A stretch of DNA of 64,000 bases, taken from assembly GCA_027081405.1 (NCBI GenBank), contig JALWKO010000049.1:43090-107089 (forward strand), written 5' to 3'. Below are positions 1 through 48,459 of the stretch, in pieces (the stretch's first letter is position 1; every line of letters starts with the position of its first letter). The position numbers were made by a program, and so were the translations under genes. The notes below the pieces were generated by a model. The model had not been told where the DNA came from. It ran no database searches and worked only from the letters and a program-made list of their open reading frames with translations. The stretch comes from Campylobacteraceae bacterium. Its GTDB lineage: Bacteria; Campylobacterota; Campylobacteria; Campylobacterales; Sulfurovaceae.

Positions 1-18
1 CGGATAGATTGCGTTCAT
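1..18 (-). CDS. Start of a leftward phage gene (partial, 6 codons visible)
   Basis: Only the first six codons (M-N-A-I-Y-P) lie in the window; the rest runs off the left edge. The start is supported by a perfect AGGAGG Shine-Dalgarno sequence on the minus strand at 25-30, six bases upstream of the ATG. It is divergent from the late operon and preceded by a 19-bp palindrome, as expected for a regulatory or early phage gene. The function cannot be told. Confidence 0.55.
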
Positions 19-45
19 CGTGTGCCTCCTGTGGTGATTCTGTGC

Positions 46-64
46 AGCTATCTATTAGATAGCT
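46..64. promoter_or_regulatory. 19-bp perfect palindrome upstream of the leftward gene
   Basis: AGCTATCTA and TAGATAGCT flank a single T. It lies 28 bp upstream of the ATG of the leftward gene. The one-base centre argues for a protein-binding operator, not an RNA hairpin. The regulator is unknown. Confidence 0.5.
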
Positions 65-147
65 CCATCGGATCACCTTCGCGCTCTCTCCCCTGCTCGC
101 GCTCGCTTTAGTCCGTTGCTCGGGACGGACTGTTAAGTAAAAGATCG

Positions 148-353
148 TTGACCGATAGATCAACTAATGCAAGTATTTCACACTTTAGCTTAAACGAAAA
201 TAAAATCCGTTGATTCTTAGATCAATTTTTTACGGATAGCGACAAAATGCCTATAAAATGGGGGTTTAGCTACGAATACTTTTTTATTAGTTACTATCCG
301 GTGCGATATTGTGGCTGCTTATTTCCACCCGCTATAATTGACCCTAGGGTCAA
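148..353. promoter_or_regulatory. Three TTGA-N8-TCAA operator-like sites
   Basis: Sites at 148-163, 210-225 and 338-353 share outer TTGA and TCAA arms with exactly eight bases between. The third, TTGACCCTAGGGTCAA, is a perfect 16-bp palindrome; the first two share AGATCAA in the right half. Repeated operators of one length between divergent transcription units are typical of a phage CI/Cro-type repressor region. The repressor gene itself is not in the window, so the assignment is inference. Confidence 0.5.
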
Positions 354-556
354 TTTTTGATACCATTCGGTAAGGGGGGATATAGGGGGGTTAAATCTTT
401 TTGATGCTCTTTTGGTTGTAGTGGTTGCTGGAGTTGATGCCCCTATAAGGGTAGATGCTTCAGTAGTTGTTTCTCTATCTCTTTTCCCGTTAGCTAAAAA
501 AGTAGGGGGGCTTCGCATTGACAGCATCGAGGACGGTTGGCGGCTTTGGCTTTGGC

Positions 557-602
557 GATAAGTTAGGCGATAAGTTAGGCGATAAGTTAGGCGATAAGTT
601 AG
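557..602. repeat. 12-bp tandem repeat, about four copies
   Basis: The unit GATAAGTTAGGC occurs at 557-568, 569-580 and 581-592, with a fourth copy lacking its last two bases at 593-602. Perfect head-to-tail copies with about one helical turn per unit resemble iterons of replication origins or multiple regulator sites. No replication gene is visible in the window, so the role is open. Confidence 0.6.
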
Positions 603-726
603 CGGCTCGTTGCGGTTGCAGGTTGGGGGGGCGGGGCCGGCTCCAGCTTTTCCGCGTCGCCTCGCGCGTGGGCGTGCGTGCGTGCGCGATTGAAGGGCAA
701 CGGTCGGCGCTGGCGGCGTCTGTTTG

Positions 727-773
727 GTGTCAAAATGGGACACAGTAGCGTTAAAGTGCCCATTTTATGGGGG
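727..773. repeat. GTGTC/GACAC palindrome followed by 17-bp repeat (left copy)
   Basis: GTGTC and GACAC flank seven bases at 727-743. The 17-mer at 757-773 (core CCCATTTTATGGG, itself an inverted repeat) recurs exactly at 26580-26596 just past the last phage gene. An ACACAGT motif lies 10 bp before the left copy and 22 bp before the right one. A related sequence (21 of 25 bases alike) sits at 244-268 compared with 26577-26601. These could be end-recognition, attachment or regulatory sites. Confidence 0.55.
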
Positions 774-955
774 ATTGCATCGGGCATTGTATCCGATACG
801 GTGGGGGAAGCGGCCCGATCGTTGCTTCGTCGGGGGACCCCCTCCCCCCTCCGCCGCGCGCCAGATACCCATATCGCCCCACCTCAACCCTATGCAAATT
901 TTTCCGCATGGCCCAACCTTATTGCAATCTTAAATTGCCCTCTCCAAAACGGCCC

Positions 956-970
956 CCGAAAAATTTTCGG
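956..970. promoter_or_regulatory. 15-bp palindrome before the late operon
   Basis: CCGAAAA and TTTTCGG flank one A, 46 bp upstream of the first small gene of the operon. No T-tract follows, so an operator is more likely than a terminator. Confidence 0.35.
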
Positions 971-1015
971 ATTTCTCTCTATGGGCCGACTTAATCGAAT
1001 CTTAAAGGCTTTTAC

Positions 1016-1156
1016 ATGAACGTCCTTAAATTTGCCGCCGCACTTGCCGTAAATATCGTTTTTGCTATCGGGAATATTTTGATTATCGCCGTAGCGCTCC
1101 CAGCCCTGATTGTTGCGAAGTCTATCGACGAAGCAAAGGACTCCTGTGAACGGTAA
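1016..1156 (+). CDS. Small single-span membrane protein, unknown
   Basis: A 46-residue ORF too short for routine prediction. An AAAGG Shine-Dalgarno at 1004-1008 is 7 bp from the ATG. After MNVLK, residues 6-35 are almost all hydrophobic and form one transmembrane helix, followed by a short charged tail with one cysteine. Its end overlaps the GTG start of the small terminase gene by 11 bases, which suggests translational coupling. It may be a small phage membrane or lysis-related protein; nothing in the sequence fixes the role. Confidence 0.55.
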   Translation: MNVLKFAAALAVNIVFAIGNILIIAVALPALIVAKSIDEAKDSCER

Positions 1157-1739
1157 GCCCGCCCCCAAATTCCTCACCCGTTTCGACAAGCAATATCTTG
1201 CAAAGCTCGTGGAGCTGGGAGACGAACGAAAAGCGCTGCGGGAGGTATTCGGCCCCGGCACCCCAATGACGAAACACGACGAGATCATGCGCAAGCCGCT
1301 GGCGCAAAAAGAGCTGCGGCGGATGATGAAGGAGGCCGACGCGAACATGGAAGTAGCGGCGTCGCTGGCTCTGCGCTACCTCCAGCGGGTGATGGCCGTG
1401 AACGTGAACGACATCATCGACCCGGAAACCGGACAGCCGAGGAAGGATGTGCCGGACGAATACTGGGCGGCGGTAAACCAGTTCGAGAAAAGCGAAACGG
1501 AGTCGGGGTCGAAAACCAAGGTGGTGATGGCCGACAAGCTCCGGGCGGCGACCCAGATTCTCAAGATTCACGGATTGACGCAGCCAAAACAGGACGTCAA
1601 CGTCAACATCGGGATCGTGCAGCAGTTGAAAAGTGCGGACGTGGACGAAGAGGCGGGCGCGTTGCTCGAGAGCTTTTTCGCTTCACGCGGTGCCCTCGAT
1701 GCGGAAATCGTCGAAAGGGAAGACGATGAGAACGCTTGA
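1146..1739 (+). CDS. terS: Phage terminase small subunit (probable)
   Basis: 197 residues if started at GTG 1146, which has an AAAGGA Shine-Dalgarno five to six bases upstream; an ATG at 1110 in the same frame lies inside the preceding small ORF and has no site. The protein is charged and helical. An N-terminal section around residues 10-60 has helix-turn-helix character (LVELGDERKALREVFG), and a second helical part runs to about residue 150. The assignment rests mainly on position directly upstream of the large terminase gene and on the DNA-binding look of the N terminus. TerS oligomers recognise phage DNA and hand it to the motor. Confidence 0.6.
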   Translation: MNGKPAPKFLTRFDKQYLAKLVELGDERKALREVFGPGTPMTKHDEIMRKPLAQKELRRMMKEADANMEVAASLALRYLQRVMAVNVNDIIDPETGQPRKDVPDEYWAAVNQFEKSETESGSKTKVVMADKLRAATQILKIHGLTQPKQDVNVNIGIVQQLKSADVDEEAGALLESFFASRGALDAEIVEREDDENA

Positions 1740-2022
1740 TGTGTATGTCACCGACGCTTCGTCTATCGCCGAATCGGTTTCGGAATTGTTCGACGCCAGG
1801 CCGGTCGCCGTACTGGTGCCGATCGAAGACTGGGTGCGGATCGACGGAAAAGAGTCGGTCCGTTGTGTCGATATGGAAGCGGAGCTCCCGACCATCGACG
1901 ATCTTTTGCGAAACGACGTCCTGTTCATCCACTACGGGGAGGAAGCGGAACGCGACTGGACCGAAGAGCTTTGGAGCGGAGCGATCGGAGATTCGATCAT
2001 TGAGGTGAGGCTGGCCGAATGA
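1726..2022 (+). CDS. Small acidic phage protein, unknown
   Basis: A 98-residue acidic protein starting MRTLDVYVTDAS. The chosen ATG overlaps the end of the terminase small-subunit gene by 14 bases, and its stop overlaps the next ATG by four bases (ATGA). The sequence alternates short beta-like segments with acidic turns and has no motif I recognise. Its place between the two terminase genes suggests a packaging accessory factor, but this is only positional. Confidence 0.6.
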   Translation: MRTLDVYVTDASSIAESVSELFDARPVAVLVPIEDWVRIDGKESVRCVDMEAELPTIDDLLRNDVLFIHYGEEAERDWTEELWSGAIGDSIIEVRLAE

Positions 2023-3836
2023 GCGAAATGAACCGTGACGACGCGATTTTTCTCAAAGCGTGTGCAAAGAGCCTCGAATTTTTTACCGTGATGGCACTGA
2101 AGGCAAAGCCGACGCAGCAGCAGTTGCAAGTGATCCGCGCGATCGACAAAGGGAAGCGGCACATCTCGATTCGATCAGGGCATGGCTGTTTCGCAAAAGG
2201 GCATCCGGTGATGATGTTCGACGGTTCGGTGAAGCCAGTCGAGAAGGTGCGGGTGGGCGACCTGCTGATGGGCGACGACGGCAAAACGCCCCGCACCGTG
2301 CTGGAATTAAAGCGCGGACGGGAGGAGATGTACCGCTTCACGTTCAACAGTGGGGACGTCCACACCTACAACGCTTCGCACAAGCTGGTGCTGGCCGGAA
2401 TGCACGGAACCGTCGAGGTGGAGGTTAGGCATTGGCTCGACTGGCCTGCCGATATTGTGCAGAAGTTTCATCCATACAAGCGATATCCCGACGGCAGAAT
2501 CGAGCCGCTGAAAATAGCGACGGTCGAAGCTCTCGGCGTCGGTGACTACTACGGCTTCACCCTCAACGGAAACCACCGCTTTCTCTCCGGCGATTTCATC
2601 GTTACGCGGAACACCGGAAAAACGACCCTTCTTTCCTGGATCGTTCTATGGTGGGGAACGTTTCGTGAGGACGTGCGAATCCCAATGACCGCTCCGACGT
2701 CGCACCAGCTCAACGATCTACTCATGCCGGAGATTCGGAAGTGGTGGGAAAAACTGCCGGACCTACTCAAGAGCTCCGTCGAGATAAAGACGGAAAAGAT
2801 CGACTTCCCGCAGGGCTTCGCCGTAGCCCGGACGGCGCGGAAGGAGCAGCCCGAAGCGCTCCAGGGCTTCCACGCCACGAACCTGGCGTTCATCATCGAC
2901 GAGGCGTCGGGTATCCCGCAGATAATCTTCGAGGTCGCAGAGGGTGCCATGACGGGAGAGGAGACCCTTGCGATCATGGCGGCGAACCCCACGCGAACCG
3001 AAGGGTATTTTTATGACTCCCACCACAAGAACCGCTGGATGTGGGAATGTTTCCAGTTCAACGCCGAAGAGTCGGAAAACGTTTCACGCGAGTGGATCGA
3101 GCAGAAAAAGCGGCAATACGGGTATGACAGCGACGTGTATCGCGTGCGGGTAAAGGGGGAGTTTCCGTCCGCAAGCTCAAACTCCGTTTTCAGGCTGGCC
3201 GACATCGAAGACGCAATCGCAAGGGAGCAGTTCGACGATAGCGGCGCGGAGGTGTGGGCGCTCGACATCGCCGACTACGGGGACGACCGCTCCGTGCTGG
3301 TCAAGCGGAAGGGGAAGCACTTTTACTTCATCGAGGCAAGACGCGGCCTCAACCTCCCCGATCTCGTCGGATGGCTCCTGTACGAATACAAAAAAGCGCA
3401 ACGCAAGCCCGCCGTGATCTATTACGACGCGATCGGGGTCGGATCGTCGCTCGGCGCGGTCGCCTACGAAAAAGGGCTTCAGTGCGTCCACGGGGTCAAG
3501 GCTTCCAACACCGCCATCGACTATCACACATACGAGAACAAGCGTGCCGAGTGGTACTACGCCCTCTCCGAAATCCTCAAGGACGGGAAGCTCCCGGACG
3601 ACGACGAGCTCGTAGGGGAGCTGATGGCCAACAAATACAAGATTTCGGCAAGCGGGAAACTTCAACTCATCGACAAAAAGGAGATCAAGAATGAACTGGG
3701 ACGGTCGCCCGACAAGGCCGATGCACTGGCAATGTGCTGCGAGAGCTTCTCCGCTTTGGACGTTTTGGCGATCGAGGAGGAAATGGATGAAGAATATTCC
3801 GCTCCGGAGCCAATGGAAGGAAGGGCCGCATGGTAG
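2019..3836 (+). CDS. terL: Phage terminase large subunit containing an in-frame mini-intein
   Basis: This is the DNA-packaging motor ATPase and nuclease. The 605-residue precursor carries an intein at residues 57-198; the spliced protein would be 463 residues. The Walker A loop is split: SGHG precedes the intein and TGKTT follows it, giving SGHGTGKTT after splicing. Walker B is FIIDEAS near residue 291. The C-terminal RNase H-like nuclease shows its acidic residues in LDIADYGDD (about 415), YYDAIGVG (about 468) and DKADALAM (about 565). The start overlaps the previous stop (ATGA). Without splicing the P-loop cannot form, so packaging should depend on intein excision. Confidence 0.92.
   Translation: MSEMNRDDAIFLKACAKSLEFFTVMALKAKPTQQQLQVIRAIDKGKRHISIRSGHGCFAKGHPVMMFDGSVKPVEKVRVGDLLMGDDGKTPRTVLELKRGREEMYRFTFNSGDVHTYNASHKLVLAGMHGTVEVEVRHWLDWPADIVQKFHPYKRYPDGRIEPLKIATVEALGVGDYYGFTLNGNHRFLSGDFIVTRNTGKTTLLSWIVLWWGTFREDVRIPMTAPTSHQLNDLLMPEIRKWWEKLPDLLKSSVEIKTEKIDFPQGFAVARTARKEQPEALQGFHATNLAFIIDEASGIPQIIFEVAEGAMTGEETLAIMAANPTRTEGYFYDSHHKNRWMWECFQFNAEESENVSREWIEQKKRQYGYDSDVYRVRVKGEFPSASSNSVFRLADIEDAIAREQFDDSGAEVWALDIADYGDDRSVLVKRKGKHFYFIEARRGLNLPDLVGWLLYEYKKAQRKPAVIYYDAIGVGSSLGAVAYEKGLQCVHGVKASNTAIDYHTYENKRAEWYYALSEILKDGKLPDDDELVGELMANKYKISASGKLQLIDKKEIKNELGRSPDKADALAMCCESFSALDVLAIEEEMDEEYSAPEPMEGRAAW
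2187..2612 (+). other. Mini-intein in the terminase P-loop
   Basis: The intein spans 142 codons. Block A begins with the splicing nucleophile Cys57 (CFAKGHPVMMFDGSVKPVEK, then VGDLLMG). A block B-like NASHKLVL follows near residue 118. Block F/G is NGNHRFLSGDFIVTRN, ending in the terminal Asn198. The next extein residue is Thr. The usual penultimate histidine is arginine (RN in place of HN). There is no room for a homing endonuclease between blocks B and F, so this is a minimal splicing-only form. Confidence 0.9.
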
Positions 3837-4300
3837 CAGGGCAGGAGTGGGCACGGGAGCAACTTTACGATCTGGTGGACGGGGACCTGCTTCGGCTGTA
3901 CGCATTCGTACTCAAAAACGGGAATTGTCGCGTAGCGTTGTCAAAAGAGCTTGCGGTAGCGAAGATCGCTCGAGACATGGAAAGCCGTGGCGCACCAAGA
4001 AAAGCGATTCGGGAAACAGTGCGACGCTACGGTGTAAGCAGAATACCGAAGAGAAAAGCATTTCCGAAAGGATTCCTGGCTGCCGTCAGGCTTTTTGGAG
4101 ATCCAGAGCGGGTCCTCGAAAAGAGTGCCGAAGATGTAACGCTCGTCTACGTGCTCAAGCGTCGTCATATCGAATACCTCATCATCGAGGCGCTTGCAAA
4201 AGCCGGGTGGTCCCCGAGTCAGATCGTCGCCGCGACAGGCTTCGGTCGCCGCCGCGTACAAAGGATCGTCAAAAAAGTCAAGGAGCAACACAATGAGTAG
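3830..4300 (+). CDS. Probable DNA-binding phage protein with two HTH-like segments
   Basis: 156 residues, basic. The segment at about 41-70 (LAVAKIARDMESRGAPRKAIRETVRRYGVSRI) and the C-terminal segment at about 125-150 (GWSPSQIVAATGFGRRRVQRIVKK) both have helix-turn-helix spacing; the second resembles resolvase or Mor-type HTHs. The gene overlaps terL by 7 bases and the portal gene by 8 (ATGAGTAG). Position between terminase and portal suggests a packaging or late regulatory factor. I do not recognise the family. Confidence 0.55.
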   Translation: MVAGQEWAREQLYDLVDGDLLRLYAFVLKNGNCRVALSKELAVAKIARDMESRGAPRKAIRETVRRYGVSRIPKRKAFPKGFLAAVRLFGDPERVLEKSAEDVTLVYVLKRRHIEYLIIEALAKAGWSPSQIVAATGFGRRRVQRIVKKVKEQHNE

Positions 4301-5957
4301 AAAAACGAAGCAGCGCAAGCAGGCCCAAATCCTCCAGCTTATCGAGGAGGCGAAAAAGGGCTATCAGCGCTATAAAAACGACTTTGCGAAACTCGAAGAG
4401 GGATACCTCAACATCCTCGACCCAAAGCTCGTCAGAAGCCTGAAAATTCGCCGCAAGAGCCACATCACCCCACAGATCATCCGGGCCAAGGTTCGGCGCG
4501 TCGCGATTTCGATCATGAAAACGTATTTCGAGAACGACCGCTTCGCCGCCGTAACACCGGAGACGTTCGACAAGGAAATAATCGAACAGGCGAGTCGCGT
4601 GCAAGCTCGGCTCGATGTGTGGACGACAAAGAAGATCAACCTCTATTCCAGGTTCAAGCCCGCCGTGATCGACGCGCTCGTGTACGGAACGGCGATCGCC
4701 AAGGTGTGGTGGGGCAAAGGCGGGCTCAGGGTGTCAAGGGTGAAGGTGCGTGATCTGTATATCGACCCGAACGCCACGAACGTGGAGGACATCCAATATT
4801 GCGTCCATCGCGTTACGACCACAGTAGGAAAGTTGCGACGCCAATACGGTCGAAAATTCAAGTGGAAAAACTACATCGGTCAGCACGAAAACGGGAAGCT
4901 CGTAACGATTGATATCGGCGATGCGTCCCGCGTCGAGGTGCTGGATGTGTATCGCTATGAAGGGGGCAAGTGGCTCGTCTCCACCGTACTCCCGGATCAG
5001 ACCTTCATCCGTACCGACGTGGAGCTAAAAGACGGCCTGCCGTTCGTCATTGGAAACGTCGAACCCCAGTTCATTCGGTTGAGCGAAGGGAACGCCGTGG
5101 AGGCTTACGGCGGGAGCTTCATCGAGCCGATGATCCCGCTGCAAGAGGAATACACCGTCACGCGCAACCAGCAGATCGACGCGATCGACGGGATTTTCCA
5201 GCACCGCTTTTTGGCCACACGCGAATCCGGGCTCAAAGAAGAGGACCTGACCTCGAACCGGAAAAAGATCACAGTGTCCAATCTCAACATGGTCAAAGAG
5301 CTTCCGATCCCGAGGATTGACCCGTCAATCTTCGGAATCGACCGGCTCGATTCCGAAATGCAGGAGGTGAGCGGAGTAACAAAATACAACCAGGGGCTCA
5401 ACGACCCCAAAAACCTGAACCAGACGGCAACCGGAGTCTCGATTCTGACGGAAGAAGGAAACGCGGTGATCGCCGACATCACCCGCGCATTGAACGAGTC
5501 GTTTTTTGAGCCTGCGGTACGCCGCATGGCGAGACTGATCTGGAAGTACGATGAAGCGCCGGAGCTTTACGGCATCGACCGAAGCGCCGTCCCGCTTTTG
5601 CACGTCCAGATCAACGCGGGGGTCGGGGCGGTCAACAACGAGCTGCTGCTGAACAATATTTCGGCGGCTGAAGGGGTAGCGCTCCAGCTGGCTAACACCT
5701 ATGCTTCGCTCGGTGACGCCGTAGGGGCACAACGGTATCTCAGGGTGCTGGATGCGCTTTTTGAGGAGAAACTCAAAGCGCTCAAGCTGAAGACAATTAT
5801 TCCAATTGCGAAGGGAGAAGATGATGAGCGAGAGCGGATTGAAGACAGCGCAGCAGGAGCCGTTATCGGCGATGGAACTGCTGGCGGAAATGGAGGCGAC
5901 CAGGGGGTCGCTGGGCTTCCAGGTGCTGCTCCGGGAGATGGAGCAGAGATTCAATGA
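4293..5957 (+). CDS. Portal protein, podovirus type
   Basis: 554 residues from the ATG at 4293, which follows an AAGGAG site; longer in-frame extension has no site. The portal forms the dodecameric ring through which DNA is packaged and which connects head and tail. Supporting features are the length, position after terL and before scaffold and capsid, and the central helical region around residues 285-440 (EEYTVTRNQQIDAIDG, then GVTKYNQGLNDPKNLNQTATG), which matches P22/T7-like connectors. The last roughly 45 residues are Gly/Ala/Asp-rich and overlap a second gene in another frame. Confidence 0.8.
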   Translation: MSRKTKQRKQAQILQLIEEAKKGYQRYKNDFAKLEEGYLNILDPKLVRSLKIRRKSHITPQIIRAKVRRVAISIMKTYFENDRFAAVTPETFDKEIIEQASRVQARLDVWTTKKINLYSRFKPAVIDALVYGTAIAKVWWGKGGLRVSRVKVRDLYIDPNATNVEDIQYCVHRVTTTVGKLRRQYGRKFKWKNYIGQHENGKLVTIDIGDASRVEVLDVYRYEGGKWLVSTVLPDQTFIRTDVELKDGLPFVIGNVEPQFIRLSEGNAVEAYGGSFIEPMIPLQEEYTVTRNQQIDAIDGIFQHRFLATRESGLKEEDLTSNRKKITVSNLNMVKELPIPRIDPSIFGIDRLDSEMQEVSGVTKYNQGLNDPKNLNQTATGVSILTEEGNAVIADITRALNESFFEPAVRRMARLIWKYDEAPELYGIDRSAVPLLHVQINAGVGAVNNELLLNNISAAEGVALQLANTYASLGDAVGAQRYLRVLDALFEEKLKALKLKTIIPIAKGEDDERERIEDSAAGAVIGDGTAGGNGGDQGVAGLPGAAPGDGAEIQ

Positions 5958-6138
5958 CCTGCACCGGGAGGCTGGAGACGAAAGTCTCGACCCCGTTGCG
6001 GTGGTCCGCAGAATCGAGCGCGCAAAAGGGATTGCATGGTCGATGGCGCTCATCGACGCTTTGATCTCCACGCTCGAGGACGAGGCGGAAGAAGAAAAGC
6101 GACAAAAAGAAATCGAAAAGGAGTACGACAATGGCTGA
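5824..6138 (+). CDS. Small helical phage protein overlapping the portal gene
   Basis: 104 residues. I prefer ATG 5824 over 5821 because the GGGAG site then sits six bases upstream. The first 134 bases are read in a different frame from the portal C terminus. The protein is strongly helical and charged (METTRG-like start to EDEAEEEKRQKEIEKEYDNG end), with no recognised domain. Coupling to the next gene is tight, with an 8-base overlap. It could be a head accessory or chaperone-like factor; function unknown. Confidence 0.5.
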   Translation: MSESGLKTAQQEPLSAMELLAEMEATRGSLGFQVLLREMEQRFNDLHREAGDESLDPVAVVRRIERAKGIAWSMALIDALISTLEDEAEEEKRQKEIEKEYDNG

Positions 6139-6484
6139 AGCACAAAAGACGAAAGGCCGGGGGCGCGCCAAGGCCCCTGCTGCCCCTGAAGTACAGGACG
6201 CTGCCCCTGAAGTACAGGACGCTGCCCCTGAAGTACAGGACACAGAAGAAAATGCGAACCAGGGCATGAGCTTTTGTGAGGCGATGGAGGCCGCCAGAAA
6301 AGGCGCCAGACTGCGGCGCAGAAAGTGGGGAGAGCGCATCCTCCCCGGTGGTGCCGTTGTGATCCGCCGTGGCGAAACGCTCCCGACCGTCGCCTACGAA
6401 ACCTACTATGCCGTGTTCACGGTGAGCACCGAGGACGCAATGGCCAACGATTGGTATGAAGTGAAAGGAGACGATAATGCCTGA
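6131..6484 (+). CDS. Tad2-like (DUF2829) protein, candidate anti-Thoeris protein
   Basis: 117 residues. Residues 46-115 match what I know of the DUF2829/Tad2 family: an N-terminal MSFCEAMEAARKGARLRRRKW block (aliphatic helix, Gly, basic cluster, Trp) and a C-terminal DAMANDWYEV block that matches the usual D-x-x-A-x-D-W ending. Tad2 proteins sequester the cyclic-ADP-ribose-type signal of Thoeris immunity. Ahead of the domain is a basic, Ala/Pro-rich leader with three perfect copies of the heptapeptide APEVQDA. ATG 6266 (Met46) is a possible internal start that would give the bare domain. Location inside the head operon suggests expression with, or incorporation into, the particle. Confidence 0.7.
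   Translation: MAEAQKTKGRGRAKAPAAPEVQDAAPEVQDAAPEVQDTEENANQGMSFCEAMEAARKGARLRRRKWGERILPGGAVVIRRGETLPTVAYETYYAVFTVSTEDAMANDWYEVKGDDNA
6179..6241 (+). repeat. Three perfect 21-bp in-frame repeats
   Basis: Units at 6179-6199, 6200-6220 and 6221-6241 are identical and each encodes a seven-residue linker unit rich in Ala, Pro, Glu and Val. Identity at the DNA level implies recent duplication or slippage, so copy number may vary between strains. Confidence 0.85.
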
Positions 6485-7085
6485 TCCCAGAATCGACCCT
6501 GCGGCATACGCCGCCTTGTTGCAGGATGAAGGACAGCAGCCCCAGACGCAGACGAACGATGGGGGACAGCAACCGCAGATGCAGGCGACCATGACCCCGG
6601 AGGAGATTGCGGCAGCCCAAGCCGCCATGCAAATGCAGGCTGCACAGATGCAGCAGGCTCCCGCAGGCTCCCAGCCGGATACGGAGGATCAACTCGAAGA
6701 GGCAAAAAGGCTCCTCGGCCTTGACCAGACGCAAGAGCAACTCCAAGCCATGCAAGAGCGTCTGCGTCAAATGGAGCTCGAAAAAACCGAAGCGGAACTC
6801 CGGGCGAAATTCCCCGACGTTCCGAAAGAGGCCGTGGAGCAGGAGATCGAACGAATCAAGAAGTCCGACCCGAATTTCGCCGAGTCGCTGATGGCAACAC
6901 CGGCAGGTTTGGAGATGGCCTATCGCGCCGCTGCCGCCGCAATGAAGCCCAAAGAGGCTCCCGACGTCCTTACTGATGAAGGGGGCGCCGGAGCGGGCGG
7001 CGAAGATGACATTGTTGAGAAAGTCCGCACCGGAAAAGCGGACGACTTCACTCTCGGACAGTACATCCTCGGCCTGGGCGGATAA
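6477..7085 (+). CDS. Phage scaffolding protein (probable)
   Basis: 202 residues, overlapping the previous gene by 8 bases. The N-terminal 75 residues are rich in Gln, Met and Ala and look disordered. Residues about 75-130 form a charged helix (EEAKRLLGLDQTQEQLQAMQERLRQMELEKTEAELRAKFP). The C-terminal section is Gly-rich and acidic, then ends in a short amphipathic segment (FTLGQYILGLGG). Composition and position directly before the major capsid gene are typical of scaffolds that guide procapsid assembly and are later removed. Confidence 0.75.
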   Translation: MPDPRIDPAAYAALLQDEGQQPQTQTNDGGQQPQMQATMTPEEIAAAQAAMQMQAAQMQQAPAGSQPDTEDQLEEAKRLLGLDQTQEQLQAMQERLRQMELEKTEAELRAKFPDVPKEAVEQEIERIKKSDPNFAESLMATPAGLEMAYRAAAAAMKPKEAPDVLTDEGGAGAGGEDDIVEKVRTGKADDFTLGQYILGLGG

Positions 7086-7196
7086 AGTCCGCCTCCCTTC
7101 CTCCTCCAAAAAAAGTATTCACGCGACAAAACAATATCGCTCCGCGCACGTTCCATATAGAAAAATTGAGGCATCACAACAAAAAGGAGAGTTTCA

Positions 7197-8132
7197 ATGC
7201 CTCTGCTTTCGTATGGAAACATGACGAACCAAAAGCCTTCGGTGCTCGACTCCATCATCCTCCAGGGCGTGCACAGAACCCCGTTCCTGGAGTGGATGGG
7301 GCGGGGAAGCGTCGCCGCGCCCAAGCACTCCTGGATTCTCGATCGCTACCGCGAAGCGCGCGAAAACGCGAACCTCGAGGTGACCGGGCTGGAGGAGAAC
7401 ACCCAGGACACGAAGTACATGAAGGACAACGTTGTCCAGATCATCAAGAACGACTTCGGCCTTTCCAAGGAGGAGCTGAAAAACGCCAAATACGGCGAAC
7501 AGGAGTGGCCCTACCGCGTAGCCAAAGAGGGGAAGGAGCACACCAAGGACATCGAGTACGCGATCCTCGGCCTCCACAACGCTTCCGTCTACGACGGCTA
7601 TACCGCGGGGAGCAACTCGACCCCCGCAAAAATGGCCGGCATCTTCCACTTCATCGAAGACACCAACCGGAAGCACTTCGACACCAACGGGGACGGAACC
7701 GGGGACAAGACCGATCTGACCTACGACAAACTCAGCGAGGCCATTCAGCCCGTATGGGAGCGTGGCGGCCTTGAAGACGAGAGCTTCCAGCTCGTCTGTG
7801 GCCCGACGCTCAAAAAGGCGATCAACCGCTTTGCCGGGGACCAGTATTTCCGGCGTGTAAAAGAAGACGGAAAATTCGACCCCACCCTCTTCGAGCTCGA
7901 GACCGACTTCGGAACCGTTCGGGTCAAGATTCATCGACTCTTTGCCAACCCCAAGCTGGCCGACAAACTGCTCATCGGGCAGCTCAACGAGGCGCGGATC
8001 ATGTTCAAGTACATGACCGACTTCGAGGAAGTGCCCACCGACAAGACCGCCAAATTCGGACGGTACTACACCTCCTTGACCCTGGAGATGGCCCGTCCCG
8101 ACTATTTCGCCTGCGCCGACGGACTGAAGTAA
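7197..8132 (+). CDS. Major capsid protein, SU10-like (DUF5309 type)
   Basis: 311 residues, preceded by a strong AAAGGAGAG site and 111 bp after the scaffold gene, consistent with high independent expression. The layout fits the SU10/DUF5309 capsid family: an N-terminal VLDSIILQGVHRTPFLEWMG arm, a helical spine around residues 60-130, and a C-terminal beta section (FGRYYTSLTLEMARPDYF). It should build the HK97-fold head shell. The family call is by eye; the capsid role is well supported by context and length. Confidence 0.75.
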   Translation: MPLLSYGNMTNQKPSVLDSIILQGVHRTPFLEWMGRGSVAAPKHSWILDRYREARENANLEVTGLEENTQDTKYMKDNVVQIIKNDFGLSKEELKNAKYGEQEWPYRVAKEGKEHTKDIEYAILGLHNASVYDGYTAGSNSTPAKMAGIFHFIEDTNRKHFDTNGDGTGDKTDLTYDKLSEAIQPVWERGGLEDESFQLVCGPTLKKAINRFAGDQYFRRVKEDGKFDPTLFELETDFGTVRVKIHRLFANPKLADKLLIGQLNEARIMFKYMTDFEEVPTDKTAKFGRYYTSLTLEMARPDYFACADGLK

Positions 8133-8141
8133 GGGGGGCGC

Positions 8142-8549
8142 ATGACCTGGGGCGAGGTGCGCGATTTCGTCTCTTTGTCGCTCAAGGGCGACAACAGCAA
8201 TGCGGACCCGAAGCCGATCCACCTGAAGATGGCGATCATGGAGATCGAGACGCTCTGCGAACCCCGGGAGTACCGCGCCCAATACACCGGAGCGGAAACG
8301 GACGTTTTTCGGCTTCTCCCTCCTCTCGACGTCGATGAGGAGGCCAATGAGTATTTGAAGATGCCGGATATTCCCGCCGCTCTCGGCGACGATGATCCGG
8401 TCCCGATCGACCCGGGACTCGAGCCTGCCGTGATCTATATGGTCGCATCGTTTTTTTCCCATAAAAGCCGCGACTACTACGAAGCGAAAGCGAAGCGGAT
8501 CATCGACATTTTCGTATCGAACGAGCGGCCAGAGAGTCAATTCCGATAG
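8142..8549 (+). CDS. Probable head completion / head-tail adaptor protein
   Basis: 135 residues. It begins MTWGEVRDFVSLSLKG and has helical C-terminal residues (AVIYMVASFFSHKSRDYYEAKAKRII) like those of small adaptor proteins that bind under the portal. It follows the capsid gene by 9 bases, the usual place for such a gene. No strict signature is visible. Confidence 0.5.
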   Translation: MTWGEVRDFVSLSLKGDNSNADPKPIHLKMAIMEIETLCEPREYRAQYTGAETDVFRLLPPLDVDEEANEYLKMPDIPAALGDDDPVPIDPGLEPAVIYMVASFFSHKSRDYYEAKAKRIIDIFVSNERPESQFR

Positions 8550-8606
8550 CCGGGCGCAGCTTCCTCCTTCGCCTCCTGTGACATACGCCCAGCGCCCGGC
8601 TATCGG
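8543..8606 (+). other. Long intercistronic hairpin
   Basis: The 15-base arm at 8543-8557 is perfectly complementary to 8592-8606, with a 34-base loop. It overlaps the last codons and stop of the adaptor gene and lies before the first fibre gene. There is no T-tract, so it is more likely an RNA processing, stability or attenuation structure between head and tail genes than a classical terminator. Confidence 0.6.
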
Positions 8607-8644
8607 AGCGGACCAGCTCATAAAATCACCCGAAAGGACTTCAG

Positions 8645-9580
8645 ATGAATGAAATGCAAACGCTGATCGAGCAGATCGGAAAGCACTGGGGATGGGAAGT
8701 CGGCGACAAGGTGCGCCAGGAGATTCAGGCGGTGCTTGCTGCTGAAGACGTGGACATCAAGCAGCTTCAAAGCGCGATCCAGACGATCCAGGGACTGCTG
8801 GACGCAGACCCCAGCACCGAAGAGTTCGACGTCGGCCAAAACATCGTCACCCAGTTGAGCGACCACCTCTCCCGCATCACCGGGCTCGAGACCGACATGA
8901 ACCGGCTGAAGGGGGACGAAACGGTAGCCGGGTCGGTCGCGTATGCCGTCAAACAGGAGCGGGACCGTGCCCAGGCCGTAGAAGCACAGCTGCGGCAGGA
9001 TACCGACGCCAACACCGCCGCAATCAACACCCTCAACGGTGATGAAACCGTAGAGGGGTCCGTCGCAAAAAAAGTGAAAGACGCGGTTGACGCCGAAGCT
9101 GCGGCCCGCACGCAAGCCGACGCGGCCCTCCAGGCCCAGATCGACGAGATCACCGGCGGAAGCGGAAATTCGCTCTCCAGCATCCAAGGCGAACTGGACG
9201 CAACCCAGGCCGGGGCCGGGCTGAATGGCGACGGCAGCTACACCGCCGACCAGAACGCCAACTACATCAAGGACGCCACCAGCCTGATGGATGCCGACAA
9301 AAAGCTGGATGCGGCCATCAAGAACGTGGAGACTCAAGCCGCCGCGCAAGCCAAGGCCGCAGAGTCGAATGCGAAACAGTACGCCGACGATACTTTCGTC
9401 ACCAAGGCGCAGATCGCGAGCATCAGCGCCGCCACGCTGGCGTCTATCTTCCGCCACGCTCTCGACTGCGGATTCGACGGCAAGCCCAAAGACGACGTAC
9501 TCAACGGTACGGGTGACTGTGCCACCGCAAACGGAGGCTCCGGCGACGGAGGAGACGGCGATGACGGCGCCGTAATCTAA
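8645..9580 (+). CDS. Coiled-coil tail/neck fibre protein
   Basis: 311 residues. It contains a tandem repeat built around LNGDETVEGSVAKKVKDAVDAEA (and RLKGDETVAGSVAYAVKQERDRAQ), a module common in trimeric phage fibres and whiskers. It is followed by Ala-rich coiled coil (residues about 215-260) and a Gly/Asp-rich C-terminal tail ending DDGAVI. It opens the tail gene block and has its own AAAGGA site. It likely assembles as an elongated trimer on the virion surface or neck. Confidence 0.6.
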   Translation: MNEMQTLIEQIGKHWGWEVGDKVRQEIQAVLAAEDVDIKQLQSAIQTIQGLLDADPSTEEFDVGQNIVTQLSDHLSRITGLETDMNRLKGDETVAGSVAYAVKQERDRAQAVEAQLRQDTDANTAAINTLNGDETVEGSVAKKVKDAVDAEAAARTQADAALQAQIDEITGGSGNSLSSIQGELDATQAGAGLNGDGSYTADQNANYIKDATSLMDADKKLDAAIKNVETQAAAQAKAAESNAKQYADDTFVTKAQIASISAATLASIFRHALDCGFDGKPKDDVLNGTGDCATANGGSGDGGDGDDGAVI

Positions 9581-9589
9581 GGGGGCGAA

Positions 9590-9988
9590 ATGGCACTCTA
9601 CAAAAAAGAGGTCCTGGTGCGGCCCAATTCTACCGCCGACTTCGAGGCGGCGATGAGCTTCGCGCAAAACTGGCTGATGAACACCTTCCAGGACAAGGCA
9701 ACCAACAAAGACGAGAACGGAAACTACATCGACTACTTTTTCGCCGACGTCTTTTTCGCACCCGGTCATGCGCTGGGCGGACAGACGTGGAGAATCTTCA
9801 CCCCTCCGTGCGCGGACAAGTATTCGATGACCCCCGATCCGAACACCGGGCGGATCGAGTTCAAGATCGCCGATTTGGCCGGTTTGCAAAGCCAGATCGC
9901 CGCAAACGCGAATGAAATTTCCGATCACGAGTCGCGCATCCAGGCGCTGGAAAACAGCTCCGATGAAGTCGAAGCAACTGTAATCTAA
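9590..9988 (+). CDS. Phage tail-region protein, unknown
   Basis: 132 residues, 9 bases after the previous gene. Residues 1-95 look globular with aromatic beta segments (YIDYFFADVFFAPGHALGGQTW). The C-terminal part is helical (LAGLQSQIAANANEISDHESRIQALEN) and could trimerise. It ends EATVI, like the DGAVI end of its neighbour. Probably structural; no family recognised. Confidence 0.5.
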   Translation: MALYKKEVLVRPNSTADFEAAMSFAQNWLMNTFQDKATNKDENGNYIDYFFADVFFAPGHALGGQTWRIFTPPCADKYSMTPDPNTGRIEFKIADLAGLQSQIAANANEISDHESRIQALENSSDEVEATVI

Positions 9989-10002
9989 AAAAAGGAGAAA
10001 TT

Positions 10003-10572
10003 ATGCCCACACCTATGAACTTGACCCTGAGAGCCGAAAAAGGCGCCCCCCTGACCCACGACGAAATGGATGCCAACTTCCTTGCATTGGCGTCGATGTT
10101 TTCGGGGGATGATCGCTACTTCCTCCCCGTGATGGTCGATGCAAGTGGGGAGCCTGCCGCTATCGACTACGAAACCGTACTGTGTACCGTCGATCCCGAC
10201 AATCCGGACTTTACCGCCACTACCCCACAGAACCCGTCATTCATATGCCATGTTCGTGGTAGCGTCATCGCGTTTTCCGAAGACGATAACGGGATCGTTA
10301 CGGAAGGGGACAACGCATTCACCAAATACGACATTAACGAGATGATGCTCGTTTCGGTAGAGATCGACAAGGACGGAAAGCTGGTTCCGACTGTAACCGG
10401 TGGGAGCGATAACGTGACGATCGAATATTACGAAGACGACGACGACAACCCCCGCAGGGAATTTGATCTGAAATTCACATTCGACGGTCACAACCGCGCC
10501 TTCGGGAGCGTGTTCGTGACGGTATACGTGGCAGAGCCTGACGGCTTCAACTTTGAAGAAATGTTTGCATAA
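10003..10572 (+). CDS. Tail fibre-associated protein
   Basis: 189 residues. The N-terminal motif GAPLTHDEMDANFLAL is the short segment found near the start of many phage tail fibre and appendage proteins. The remainder is a beta-rich, acidic domain with a run of five Asp residues around residue 145 and a final FNFEEMFA. A clear AAAGGAG site precedes the ATG. Likely a fibre connector or small appendage subunit. Confidence 0.55.
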   Translation: MPTPMNLTLRAEKGAPLTHDEMDANFLALASMFSGDDRYFLPVMVDASGEPAAIDYETVLCTVDPDNPDFTATTPQNPSFICHVRGSVIAFSEDDNGIVTEGDNAFTKYDINEMMLVSVEIDKDGKLVPTVTGGSDNVTIEYYEDDDDNPRREFDLKFTFDGHNRAFGSVFVTVYVAEPDGFNFEEMFA

Positions 10573-10581
10573 GGCGAGCTT

Positions 10582-11055
10582 ATGAGCAGCTATGTAGAGC
10601 CTGGCTACGTTGAGTCCGGATATTTTGAGGGGGATAGCGTATTGTCCATTCCCCCCGGTCCGATCGCCTTGCGCTTTTTTATCGCGCAGGGGGCTACGGC
10701 GGTGGAGGACGCGATCAAAAACGCTACGCCGGGCAGTGGAGAGATCGCCGTCGTTTATATGCCGGATGCGGGGAAAACGGTCCTGTTTGACGGGGAAAAT
10801 ACCGCCGTCATGGTCGGGGCGCCAAGCCAGGATGAGATCATCGCGGCGGTAAGCACGCCGACGTATGTGAACATGGTCGCACAGACGGTCCAGAACAGCG
10901 TATCCGTGAATATGAGCGCGTGCATCAAAGATTCCGGCGGCTCCATAGTCTCGGATGCTACGGTTCGACGAATCGACAATACAACATTCGAGGTTGAGAT
11001 CCCGCAAAATCTCGTCGGCACTCAATATCGGATCGTGCTCGGCGAACAATGCTAA
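10582..11055 (+). CDS. Phage tail-region protein, unknown
   Basis: 157 residues, 9 bases after the previous gene. The start MSSYVEPGYVESGYFEGD has a Tyr/Gly/Glu repeat. The rest is beta-rich and ends with VGTQYRIVLGEQC. No motif is recognised. The context is a run of appendage genes, so a structural role is likely. Confidence 0.5.
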   Translation: MSSYVEPGYVESGYFEGDSVLSIPPGPIALRFFIAQGATAVEDAIKNATPGSGEIAVVYMPDAGKTVLFDGENTAVMVGAPSQDEIIAAVSTPTYVNMVAQTVQNSVSVNMSACIKDSGGSIVSDATVRRIDNTTFEVEIPQNLVGTQYRIVLGEQC

Positions 11056-11067
11056 GAGGGGACATCT

Positions 11068-13791
11068 ATGGGGTGTGACGCATTTGTGAAATTCGGGGAC
11101 GGGGAAGTTGCGATCCCAGACGAGCTTAGGGAACGATTCCCCGATATCGAGATCGAGGTGGTGTCGGACACGACGATTCGGATCAAGAACGTCTGCGGCG
11201 CGGATGTTGGATTCGGAAGCGAAATCGTCCCTGCCGCGGAGGGGGCGTTTTGGGCAAACGTATCACACGGTCCAAACGTAGGGAGGATCGCCACGAGCTA
11301 TGAGGGAGACGTCACCGGGCCGTGCCCCCCAAAGCTGGTGGCGTTTTATGCTAACGCGGACGACGCCCCGCCGTTCCTTGACATCCGAGATAGGCGCTGT
11401 GATATCCCACCGATGATCGGGATGTTCATCACGGCTCCCGTTCTTGAGCATTTCACCACGGACGGGGTGACAGACTTCGACGCTCTCGAGCAGTGGGTGT
11501 ACGACAGTCTTCCCCGTGATCCGTACGGTAATCTCGAAACGAGTTACGGCGTTGACGCGCATTACGCGATTATGTCGTTGCGGTCTACACCACAGGAGAA
11601 AATCAACGAATACCTCCAGGCCAATGCTGATCCGATCGCGGCGTACAATGCGATCGTCGAGATGGCTGATATTTTCTATCGGGCCAATCCGACCGATTCA
11701 AGGCAGATCAATTTCACGTTCCGTCCGTGTACTGGAGGCTCCGGCGGAGGAGGCGCTATCGACGCAAGCTTCATCGGGAGCTACAACAGAGACGAGCCCT
11801 ATATCGGGCTCCGTATCAATTTCGGTCAATCGTTTCCCGACGCAGACAAGCTTGAACAGCGAGACTATATCGTTGTGACGCCGGATATTTCCGCCGTCTA
11901 TTCCGCTCCATGCGGCAAATCCTTCGGCCCTGTGGACGACGTAAGCTGGGGGCTTCCAGCGCCACCGAGCACGACCATCAGCTACAATCCAGACAATAAA
12001 ACGGCAACAGTTGTCGTAGAGGAGGAGGGAAGGTGGTTCGACGCCGCGATCGCGATCATTCAGGCATTTATGGCGTATCCGGAGCTTGAGGAACTTCAAG
12101 TCCACGTCAGAATGAGAGATGACCGGAAAACGTACAATGTTTTTGAATACCGTGCGTCCGGCCCTGATTTGGGGCTTTGGTATGCGCATAGTATATCGGA
12201 CAACGAAGGCGGCGGATATCGGCAGCTTGATGAAGCAGGCTATATGCTAATGCGAACTCTTGAGCATATTTTGGCTTTTGACCGTTGCGGGCATGTTCCC
12301 GCCCCGGAAAACATCCGGATGCCTGCTCCAGCCAAAGATGGCATCCTGTACTACCCCGGTAAAATTTCCAATAAAATCAGGAGACTTACAGTTACCCCGT
12401 CCTCCTGGGGTGATTTAGCAGGAGGACTCCTGATTCAGTCTAAGCATATTGAGTATTTTTATTGCGAGGGTGTTGAATATTCCATAGGTGACGACGGAAC
12501 GTCTACAATCATACTTAGAGATATAGGCGAACATGCTTATATCAATGCAGGGATCGCGGTGCACAAAAAAGCAGACGTATGCGAAATTGTTACCCTTGAA
12601 AATAGCGGCTTTGTAGCTCTTGCGCACACAGCCATCCAGAATGGGTGTGAAGTCGTCAATTTTTATGTTGGTTGGGCTGCGGCGCGACTGAAGGACGGAG
12701 TCCTTAAACTTGACTACATGACTTATGATGTGGCAAACATTGGCATGCCGACGCTGATGGCTGCCGGGTTTCGGAGGTTTTATGAAGTTGGCACAGATTG
12801 GCCGGAATTTAATCTCGCTGAGTTGGTCACGGATAAGTATGACATGCTTCCGGTCCTCTATGAGCATGGGGGGACGGCTGAACGGTATGTCTTTAATAAT
12901 CTTACAAGAAAGGTCTTTCGTTCCACAATTCGCTTCGGCGGCCTTCTTGACGAGTGCCCAGATTTTCTCGAGGAGATGCCGCTTTGGTATGGGGGGCCGC
13001 CAGACTTTATTTCTGTAAACGGAGTGTCGCTCTCCGATACGGCCTCTCTGACTAAAGCTCTTTACGAAGATGATAATGTTGTTGTGTCGATTGCCGGAGG
13101 CGAGCCGGATGGAAAAATTGTCGATCGCATCCAGCGCCTTTTCTCGGCGCTCTCGGAGTATCTTAAGTCTGGATTCGGCATAGATGCCACCCCACGAGAA
13201 ACAGTTCTTAGCTTCGGGCCCGCATTCGTTTTGAGTCTCCTTCAAAATTCAGACAAGGCTTTTAGCGGTGGGGTTATTGAGGCGCGTGTTTACGACCGTG
13301 GAGAGGACGTTTTCGATGGGGACGATGACACAGGTTGCAAAATTAGGGCAAAAATAACATGGGACGTTGATGAATGCACCATTCAGACCGAATCGTGGGT
13401 TGTTCTAAATACCATTGACCTGTATAACAAAACACACTTTCTTGGCGACGACTGGAAAGTGGTCGGGTCTGGCGATGGATGGTTGTCTGTGGCCTTCTAT
13501 TGCATGGGTGAAGGCGAGGATGCCACACGACCATGCAAAACTGCACACGTGCAAAATCCTTATCAAATCAACGATGAGACGGTGCCATGCGGCGAAACAG
13601 CCCCTCCGCCTGAGCCGATCGAAGAGCCGACGATCCATCGCGGAATGCGGGTGGAGTACACGCTCACGAAGATGGACGACGGAAGTGTGTCTGTTGGGTA
13701 TACGGCGTACGACGAAGAGGATAACGATATTACGGATCAAATCACCACCCTTCAAGTTGGGGACAAGTTCATGTATAAAGGAGCTTTCTGA
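11068..13791 (+). CDS. Large tail appendage / candidate receptor-binding protein
   Basis: 907 residues, the largest of the tail block. The first roughly 230 residues include a Gly/Ser linker (CTGGSGGGGAID at about 225). The middle (about 450-640) has short repeated beta-strand and turn segments (for example VTLENSGFVALAHTAIQNGCEVVNFYVGWAAARL) that could form a solenoid. The C-terminal part (about 700-907) is beta-rich and cysteine-containing. DNA from about 12200 to 13550 is visibly more AT-rich than neighbouring tail genes, as expected when a host-range module is exchanged. Its stop overlaps the next ATG (TGATG). Function is inferred from size and place. Confidence 0.5.
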   Translation: MGCDAFVKFGDGEVAIPDELRERFPDIEIEVVSDTTIRIKNVCGADVGFGSEIVPAAEGAFWANVSHGPNVGRIATSYEGDVTGPCPPKLVAFYANADDAPPFLDIRDRRCDIPPMIGMFITAPVLEHFTTDGVTDFDALEQWVYDSLPRDPYGNLETSYGVDAHYAIMSLRSTPQEKINEYLQANADPIAAYNAIVEMADIFYRANPTDSRQINFTFRPCTGGSGGGGAIDASFIGSYNRDEPYIGLRINFGQSFPDADKLEQRDYIVVTPDISAVYSAPCGKSFGPVDDVSWGLPAPPSTTISYNPDNKTATVVVEEEGRWFDAAIAIIQAFMAYPELEELQVHVRMRDDRKTYNVFEYRASGPDLGLWYAHSISDNEGGGYRQLDEAGYMLMRTLEHILAFDRCGHVPAPENIRMPAPAKDGILYYPGKISNKIRRLTVTPSSWGDLAGGLLIQSKHIEYFYCEGVEYSIGDDGTSTIILRDIGEHAYINAGIAVHKKADVCEIVTLENSGFVALAHTAIQNGCEVVNFYVGWAAARLKDGVLKLDYMTYDVANIGMPTLMAAGFRRFYEVGTDWPEFNLAELVTDKYDMLPVLYEHGGTAERYVFNNLTRKVFRSTIRFGGLLDECPDFLEEMPLWYGGPPDFISVNGVSLSDTASLTKALYEDDNVVVSIAGGEPDGKIVDRIQRLFSALSEYLKSGFGIDATPRETVLSFGPAFVLSLLQNSDKAFSGGVIEARVYDRGEDVFDGDDDTGCKIRAKITWDVDECTIQTESWVVLNTIDLYNKTHFLGDDWKVVGSGDGWLSVAFYCMGEGEDATRPCKTAHVQNPYQINDETVPCGETAPPPEPIEEPTIHRGMRVEYTLTKMDDGSVSVGYTAYDEEDNDITDQITTLQVGDKFMYKGAF

Positions 13792-15293
13792 TGTTGCCCA
13801 GGAGAACGGATTATAGTGGAGTGCTGATTAATTGGGACCCGGATGCAAGGAGATTTGTTGTTCGCCCAAAATATCCAGACCAAAGTATAACCCCGCTGAT
13901 CGGCCTCGGAAATGCCGCCATTCAGTTCAATATGGACCATCCGCCTCAAACGGTCGTTGCACCGATTACCGGCGAAGCGGATACGGCAAACGGGCTTGCT
14001 CCGCACAGCTTCTTTCCTTTGCATTCCCCAATTGTCGCGGCGAAGAATGTGGCGTATCGGGAAAACGTCCATATCACCGGACTCAACGGGGGGGCGGATA
14101 TCTCATTCTACGAAGCGGATTCTACCGTCGTGCTTGATTCGGTTAAGGATGCCGGTGTGATAGGAAACGGATGCAACTCAAAGCGAGGATTCATTCACGG
14201 AAGCGTAGACGGACAGTATTGGCGCCTCGATACGGTTATGGGGTTCTTCCCGGATGGAGTCAGCGGAACAAAGGTCGCGGTTGTATCCGGGGGGTATGGC
14301 GCCAAATACGTACACGCATTGGCATCCGATGGGTCGATCAAAATCGTAGCAATTGATCCGAACGGTGCAACGCACTTGGTCACGAACGAAGAAGTGCTCG
14401 AGCCGATCATGAGCCGTGTGGACAACGGATGCAAAATCGTCGAGATTGCAGGCAGCAAGAACACGCTGAAGGTGCGACTTGATGACGGACGGCTTATGAA
14501 TTTCATATACAGTGGGGCTGATCCTACGGCGGTATATGTAGGCACGGTCAGGGATATTGGTCGCGTGACGCGAAACGGTGAATATCGGTACAAGGGCGAA
14601 TATTATCACAGCGGACACGGCGACGCGCCGATCTATCCGCTGCTGGAGGGGAATATCCTCTACGTAATGGAGGCGGGAAGCACAGATATCGTCGTAAAAA
14701 TCGACAATCGGCCCGGGGATACACTGGCGACGATTCGCGGGGTGGATTTTGTCCTGATGGACGACGGCAGGATCGGGGTGCATACGCCATCGGGCTTGTC
14801 TCCAGTCTTGTCCATATCGGACTTTGCAATGCAGATGAAAATCCCAGGGGAGCCGTATTCCGCGTGCCCAGAGTGTTGCTATGGCCTATCGGGGCCTCAA
14901 GAAAGCTATCTCAAAAGCATCGGGATAGAGTGCGTCCACTCAAGCTGGAGTGGAGAAGGCGCCACCGGCCACGTCGTCGCCGGACATGTGGCCGACTTTA
15001 GTTACAGGGAGCGTCCGACCGGGTATATGAGGCAAGTAAGCGCCCTTATCGTTTCGACAGAGGCCGGAAACTTGATCCTCAAAAACGGGGCGCTCGAGCC
15101 GCTTGCCGATCACACGCAGGTTATATCCGGGGCGGATTTGGTGGCCGCCTTGTATCAGCATACGCTCTCAGACGACAAAATTCCCGTTACGTCAAACGAT
15201 GGGGTGTTTACGTCTCATGCAGTAGGTGACGGCTTGTTCCTGAGCTTTTCGGAGTGGCCATACGAAGAGGTAGACCCGACTGAGGGGGAGTAA
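13791..15293 (+). CDS. Beta-rich tail protein, possible propeller
   Basis: 500 residues, translationally coupled to the gene before it. It consists of repeated strand-turn units with DG or NG turns (SDGSIKIVAIDPNGATHLV; LDDGRLMNFIYSG; MDDGRIGVHTPSG), the look of a beta-propeller or similar repeat fold. A cysteine pair (YSACPECC) lies near residue 357. It may be distantly related to the 442-residue protein at 18800, which has similar VAVVSGG and VTRN segments. Probably part of the tail tip or appendages. Confidence 0.5.
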   Translation: MLPRRTDYSGVLINWDPDARRFVVRPKYPDQSITPLIGLGNAAIQFNMDHPPQTVVAPITGEADTANGLAPHSFFPLHSPIVAAKNVAYRENVHITGLNGGADISFYEADSTVVLDSVKDAGVIGNGCNSKRGFIHGSVDGQYWRLDTVMGFFPDGVSGTKVAVVSGGYGAKYVHALASDGSIKIVAIDPNGATHLVTNEEVLEPIMSRVDNGCKIVEIAGSKNTLKVRLDDGRLMNFIYSGADPTAVYVGTVRDIGRVTRNGEYRYKGEYYHSGHGDAPIYPLLEGNILYVMEAGSTDIVVKIDNRPGDTLATIRGVDFVLMDDGRIGVHTPSGLSPVLSISDFAMQMKIPGEPYSACPECCYGLSGPQESYLKSIGIECVHSSWSGEGATGHVVAGHVADFSYRERPTGYMRQVSALIVSTEAGNLILKNGALEPLADHTQVISGADLVAALYQHTLSDDKIPVTSNDGVFTSHAVGDGLFLSFSEWPYEEVDPTEGE

Positions 15294-47374: not shown

Positions 47375-47542
47375 GTTTCGTGTTTTGGTAGGCGCAATTA
47401 TATAGATGGGATTCTTACGATTCGCTTAATCGGGAAGAAATTTTTGCCGTTTTTTCCCCTTAAAGAACTTCCGGCCGTTTCGCGATACAATCGTGAAACA
47501 GAAACATCGCAACGATCGATTAGACAAGGAAAGCGTCCACCG

Positions 47543-48436: not shown

Positions 48437-48459
48437 CGTATCACAAGGAAGGAGGAACG

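Follow-up and report, generated by a model that had tools for sequence, protein, structure and literature searches.

Among the capsid genes of a prophage, the DNA analysed here, a stretch of 64,000 nucleotides from a Campylobacteraceae bacterium (hereafter the window), encodes a member of the Tad2-like domain family, and the question arises what such a protein does in a head operon. Tad2 itself is an anti-Thoeris sponge and a homotetramer built of V-shaped dimers. The gene occupies positions 6131-6484 of the forward strand as an open reading frame of 117 codons plus stop with an AAGGAG ribosome-binding site just 5′ of it, at the coordinates that an earlier sequence-only reading had given. Its product consists of a leader (residues 1-45) and a Tad2-like domain (residues 46-111; positions 6266-6463, +). 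Eight nucleotides are shared with the upstream 110-aa gene (5806-6138, +) and another eight with the downstream 202-aa gene (6477-7085, +), and these overlaps, together with the ribosome-binding site, indicate that the gene is probably translated together with its neighbours. The gene order runs from the terminase small and large subunits through a 156-aa gene with a helix-turn-helix match, the SU10-type portal protein (4290-5957, +; PF23899, 4.5e-31 on the longer frame 4194-5957), the 110-aa gene, the Tad2-fold gene and a scaffold-like gene to the SU10-type major capsid protein (7197-8132, +; PF17236, 7.4e-53), which is the setting between portal and scaffold that had been described, with the 110-aa gene following the portal.

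The 110-aa gene has no match in Pfam or PHROG; in relatives, too, it lies between the portal and the Tad2-fold gene, and its counterpart was recovered by phmmer in 14 of 15 portal-to-capsid intervals. The 202-aa gene, found in all 15, has no Pfam family above the cut-off, and we infer that it is the scaffold from its position before the capsid gene and its composition rich in Q, E and A. The portal matches Campylobacter and Helicobacter phages, from which we infer that the group belongs to the Campylobacterota. As a separate observation, the Walker A motif (GHG...TGKTT) of the terminase large subunit (2019-3836, +) is split by an intein-like Hint domain (PF05203, 2e-18), while the corresponding protein of a relative, G011, has an unbroken GHGTGKTT; the insertion resembles a small intein in which no clear endonuclease is seen. 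An Rfam search of positions 1-15000 gave no matches. A scan of positions 4200-8700 found one promoter-like site where 1.1 were expected. The same scan gave 10 terminator-like sites, of which 8 are on the minus strand, where 6.2 (sd 2.8) were expected, and it was set aside as evidence.

The membership of the protein in the Tad2 family is supported both by profile and by predicted structure. The match of residues 46-111 to PF11195 (Tad2-like) spans all 73 positions of the profile and scores 32.3 bits (E=1.5e-7; the curated cut-off is 25 bits), which bears out the DUF2829/Tad2 layout that had been proposed for residues 46-115 from the motifs SFCEAM (47-52), GARLRRRKW (58-66) and DAMANDW (102-108), all of which are present as quoted. 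The six proteins from the same slot that were scanned with Pfam all match PF11195, five of them above the cut-off (L047 reaches 22.7 against 25). A profile built from nine members of the lineage finds Tad2 proteins in the PDB, with ModTad2 at 1.4e-6 and 1.7e-6, SPO1 Tad2 at 2.6e-4, AcrIIA7/HgmTad2 at 0.028 and SptTad2 at 0.053. In the AlphaFold2 model the Tad2-like domain has a pLDDT of about 74-88 by block, and the predicted domain, compared as a single chain, superimposes on SPO1 Tad2 (8wje_A) with a Z score of 11.2 and an rmsd of 1.6 over 67 of 88 residues. The ten best structural matches are all Tad2 or AcrIIA7/HgmTad2 proteins, and the next one scores Z 5.2. An independent model of a second member, L018, likewise matches Tad2 (Z 6.7, rmsd 2.5, 64 residues), with two designed helical proteins, which match its leader, scoring as high. 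PADLOC and NCBIfam assign no family to the window protein. In a library of predicted viral structures most of the named top matches are likewise Tad2-like proteins, some of only 60-76 residues, so short Tad2-like forms exist elsewhere too.

While the fold appears to be that of Tad2, the head-operon form differs from its characterized relatives. With the Tad2 of the Bacillus phage SPO1 (gp34.65) and with ModTad2 of a Myroides prophage it shares PF11195, the predicted fold and the positions of the R, W, S..D and DW residues; by comparison, it lacks the GWNG motif, an F or Y replaces the W before [A/P]-S, and Q gives way to I, T or H. Its leader of variable length and its location in a head operon also set it apart. 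The distance from the conserved W to S..D is 28-33 residues in 11 head-operon members compared with 38-63 in 12 canonical Tad2 proteins (51 in SPO1 Tad2). GWNG is found in none of the 11 members and in 12/12 canonical proteins, a canonical count that is biased, 9 of the 12 having been found with a GWNG-bearing query; W-x-[A/P]-S-Q is likewise absent from all 11 and present in 10 of the 12. The clade has a motif of its own, G[E/Q/H]TxP, in 9/11 members. AcrIIA7/HgmTad2 (8kbi, 8kbj, 8kbk) has the same fold as that predicted for the window protein (Z 10.1-10.8), with longer chains (99-104 residues modelled), and the ligand binding named in the titles of these entries is theirs.

These differences bear on the ligand that the protein might bind. 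Solved members of the fold bind signal molecules, according to their entry titles gcADPR, hisADPR, cADPR and cGG. An insertion in Tad2 is reported to bind cyclic dinucleotides (PMC12043709). In the alignment the shortened stretch of the head-operon form seems to correspond to that insertion, and binding of cyclic dinucleotides in this manner is therefore unlikely. ModTad2 is reported to bind His-ADPR (PMC13299392), and the lineage motif PS[I/T/H]xD is closer to the PSVSD of ModTad2 than to the ASQTD type, a likeness to one protein that is no more than a hint. The sequence-only reading had named the protein a Tad2-like anti-Thoeris candidate, of which the family assignment holds, whereas anti-Thoeris activity does not follow from it, as GWNG and W-x-[A/P]-S-Q are replaced in 11/11 members and the domain is reduced in its central part.

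The leader had been described as basic and repeat-bearing and had been proposed to target the protein to the particle. The repeat is indeed present, as three perfect 21-bp units encoding (AAPEVQD)x3 (6179-6241, +; Tandem Repeats Finder), and was not seen in the relatives compared. The leader as a whole is acidic (residues 1-44, pI 4.4, net charge -4), however, with only the first ~18 residues basic, and most of residues 1-45 are predicted to be disordered (pLDDT under 50). Among 11 relatives the leader ranges from 11 to 99 residues, and the G016 protein, 76 aa in all, is almost without one, so the proposed targeting finds no support in these features. The leaders are rich in A, E, K and Q and are modelled as helices in L018. 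Separately, seven of the 15 Tad2-fold proteins (L012:7563, L014:4183, L015:6280, L017:7838, L018:3229, L110:2669 and L115:2887) start with a conserved peptide, M[A/P]LCS[YWF][DY]N..., after which there is a second possible start; in five that were compared the M[A/P]LCS peptide is conserved as coding sequence. The window protein lacks it.

Overlooked by the sequence-only reading was that the gene, far from being a single chance insertion, is a fixed, co-inherited part of the head operon of a whole prophage clade. Relatives were found through the SU10-type portal and the capsid protein as anchors; the window protein as a direct query gave no matches in viral contigs or phage records, L018 gave none in phage records, and a portal alignment search gave none in genome contigs. 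All 15 distinct portal-to-capsid intervals examined from the clade carry the gene, with the ~100-aa gene before it and the scaffold gene after it. On the same contig, another, related prophage holds a copy with 43% identity in the corresponding slot, and the gene is likewise found there in G011, of the same genus, and in the genomes G016 and G062. A portal at 61-70% identity is present on eight viral contigs; the seven that extend beyond it all carry the gene, including the L016 copy, which was missed by tblastn and confirmed by Pfam. A scan with the capsid protein gave 12 loci, five of them on new contigs, and the gene is present in 5/5 of these. Identical pairs were counted once (L013 equals G011 in the Tad2-fold protein, and L117 equals G016) and L019, which ends inside the portal, was excluded, while the very divergent L121 copy, which has no PF11195 match and has lost the D..DW end, was counted by its match to the lineage profile (E 4.6e-15). 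The PF11195 matches in G311, G290 and G196, whose surroundings were read, did not prove to lie in a head slot, and together with the match in G267 and those with canonical scores in G150, G250 and G293 they were left out of the head-slot set; a 17-bit match on contig 84 of G000 was set aside as it overlaps a dehydrogenase-like frame. The 107-kb contig 49 of G000 is also of note for its two prophages, at 5248-7450 and 47397-49570, which are related and agree in the order of their head genes.

Outside the clade the gene was not found in this slot. A related portal occurs in 33 of the 397 genomes of the phylum that were scanned, scoring above 700 bits in four (five loci) and no higher than 302 bits in the other 29. 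The lineage profile matches the same four high-scoring genomes and, at 0.002, a stretch with stops in G130; over the whole genomes of the 29 with only more distant portals it gave no match, and in the flanks (up to 1.5 kb) of 26 distant portal loci no open frame matched at E 0.01 or better. Where these more distant relatives were read, portal, small gene and scaffold follow each other without a Tad2-fold gene between them. Since the gene is in all examined intervals of the clade and absent from the distant-portal genomes, it was probably gained once in the clade and then kept. In the open-access literature, with subscription papers mostly outside the coverage, no account of a head operon with a fixed Tad2-like gene was found.

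The co-inheritance is also evident from sequence distances, which for the Tad2-like domain over the 15 intervals correlate with those of the portal (Mantel r 0.73, reached in 0 of 2000 permutations), the scaffold (r 0.86, 0 of 2000) and the capsid protein (r 0.52, 1 of 2000). The frame is open in all 15 intervals, and seven residues are invariant across 11 members. In one close pair, L014/L018, the domain has a pN of 0.061 and a pS of 0.335, compared with 0.019 and 0.248 for the portal, 0.028 and 0.308 for the capsid protein, 0.017 and 0.333 for the scaffold end and 0.057 and 0.199 for the upstream small gene; in this pair the domain thus shows selective constraint, weaker than that on the portal, the capsid protein and the scaffold end.

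A place between portal and scaffold genes had been called unusual for an anti-defence gene, a view that the positions of canonical Tad2 genes elsewhere do not support. A canonical Tad2/DUF2829 gene lies between terminase and portal in the Klebsiella phage IME346, in the head-tail connector operon in the Bacteroides phage BS-TP2, just before the terminase small subunit in the G232 prophage, and in CBW1004C-Prop1 it is flanked by a lysis gene and the terminase genes; others are found outside late operons, among small genes in SPO1, nucleotide-metabolism genes in XC38 and replication genes in MW202475. The genes of IME346, BS-TP2 and G232 resemble the present one in standing beside terminase, portal or connector genes but, unlike it, keep GWNG. 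One prophage of the clade has both forms: in G011 the head copy is accompanied by a canonical Tad2 gene of 162 aa ~13 kb away in the early region, both copies lying inside the IMG/VR record of that prophage. In at least three of the 15 intervals the slot is shared with a second small phage accessory gene, of another Pfam family, PF13876 (Gp49/Sf6 gene 66). These PF13876 genes are located between the Tad2-fold gene and the scaffold (L014:4496-4783, L016:6282-6611 and L017:8292-8579), and by eye genes of this type are also seen at L110:3025-3327 and L115:3240-3422. On a related point, the canonical Tad2 domain of G011 (L042:7767-8255, -) is joined to an N-terminal domain of ~70 aa (MKQYIGTK...), and PHROG 9467 matches both this N-terminal domain and a Gp49/66 protein; Tad2 and Gp49/66 domains hence have a common partner, and Gp49/66 may be a counter-defence domain too.

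The host's own genome gave no match to ThsB_TIR, TIR_2 or SMODS, while among 41 genomes searched ThsB_TIR was found in five, TIR_2 in seven and SMODS in one, and in G014, of the same bacterial family, a ThsB (2e-78) adjoins a macro-domain ThsA (9e-128) as in macro-type Thoeris. Hosts related to this one thus carry such systems. The G014 locus (L099:5146-7613) has two TIR genes and the macro-domain ThsA in a row, in a type II-like Thoeris arrangement. As for what sets off the defence, Thoeris of Staphylococcus is reported to respond to the major head protein itself when this is newly made, whereas the procapsid does not act as a trigger (PMC12578639).

Taken together, the leading reading, to which we give a probability of about one half, is that the protein is a signal-binding sponge of short-form Tad2 type made in step with the capsid. 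A clade of podovirus-like Campylobacterota prophages would have acquired a short-form Tad2-fold gene, which came to lie after the 110-aa gene and before the scaffold gene and was then kept; the protein would assemble through its Tad2-like domain and keep the defence effector off by binding an alarm signal derived from a nucleotide, probably one of the ADP-ribose class. Translated directly before the scaffold and the capsid protein, the sponge would be present when the capsid protein, the Thoeris trigger, appears, and it is this timing together with the known work of the Tad2 family that puts the sponge ahead. Its late placement is compatible with counter-defence, as canonical Tad2 genes also occur in late or head operons, and the PF13876 accessory gene in the slot and a domain pN above that of portal and capsid, yet well below pS, count in its favour. 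Anti-defence genes, however, are usually patchy in distribution, and presence in 15/15 intervals with distances that track portal and scaffold is what would be expected of a head gene; neither GWNG nor W-x-[A/P]-S-Q is kept in the 11 members compared, L121 lacks the D..DW end, the host's own genome has no ThsB_TIR, TIR_2 or SMODS match, and the head copy need not do the canonical job, given that the G011 prophage has a separate canonical Tad2.

The same fixed presence, co-inheritance and changed motifs make a role in head assembly a serious rival, which we regard as the less probable of the two. Here the Tad2 fold, with an acidic helical or disordered tail, would have been taken over as a minor head, scaffold-helper or neck component and its signal binding lost, with which the gene overlaps on both sides, the clade motif G[E/Q/H]TxP, the A-, E-, K- and Q-rich leader, helical in the L018 model, and the separate canonical Tad2 of G011 would agree. 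A neck role has in addition a weak structural match to a neck protein of phage 812 (8qkh_s, Z 5.2, rmsd 3.4, 72 residues aligned), which was not relied on as it is below the trust level of the tool and absent among the matches of the second model. The distant relatives with portal, small gene and scaffold but no Tad2-fold gene, and the negative whole genomes, suggest that this type of head does not need the gene, an argument tempered by the consideration that dependence may have arisen within the clade; the variable length of the leader and the pN/pS of the domain, which in the single pair compared exceeds that of the portal, the capsid protein and the scaffold end, likewise speak against a head-building role. 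Improbable in our view is that the sponge is carried in the virion, brought into the procapsid with the scaffold by its leader and delivered with the DNA so as to disarm signalling at once: the gene does adjoin the scaffold, the leader is charged and 7/15 members share the M[A/P]LCS... peptide, but the G016 protein has hardly any leader, the window protein lacks the peptide, and we know of no packaging signal for this phage type. That the gene is a decayed, functionless Tad2 remnant is already disfavoured and very improbable, for the loss of canonical motifs, and in L121 of D..DW, is set against frames kept open in 15 intervals, seven invariant residues across 11 members and, in the close pair L014/L018, a pN far below pS.

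The fixed place of the gene among capsid genes suggests either a counter-defence produced alongside the capsid or a fold put to a new use connected with the capsid. A more far-reaching reading, in our view somewhat less likely than not, is that an immune-signal sponge fold has been fixed in the head operon either as a sponge in lock-step with the capsid or as a part of capsid assembly that may still bind the signal inside the procapsid or virion. In the first case, the clade-wide synthesis of a Tad2-fold protein immediately ahead of scaffold and capsid protein would be a natural response to the sensing of capsid protein by Thoeris, and one open to test. If the protein is structural, a sponge fold would have been drafted into head assembly, and a PF11195 domain alone would not justify naming a gene anti-Thoeris.
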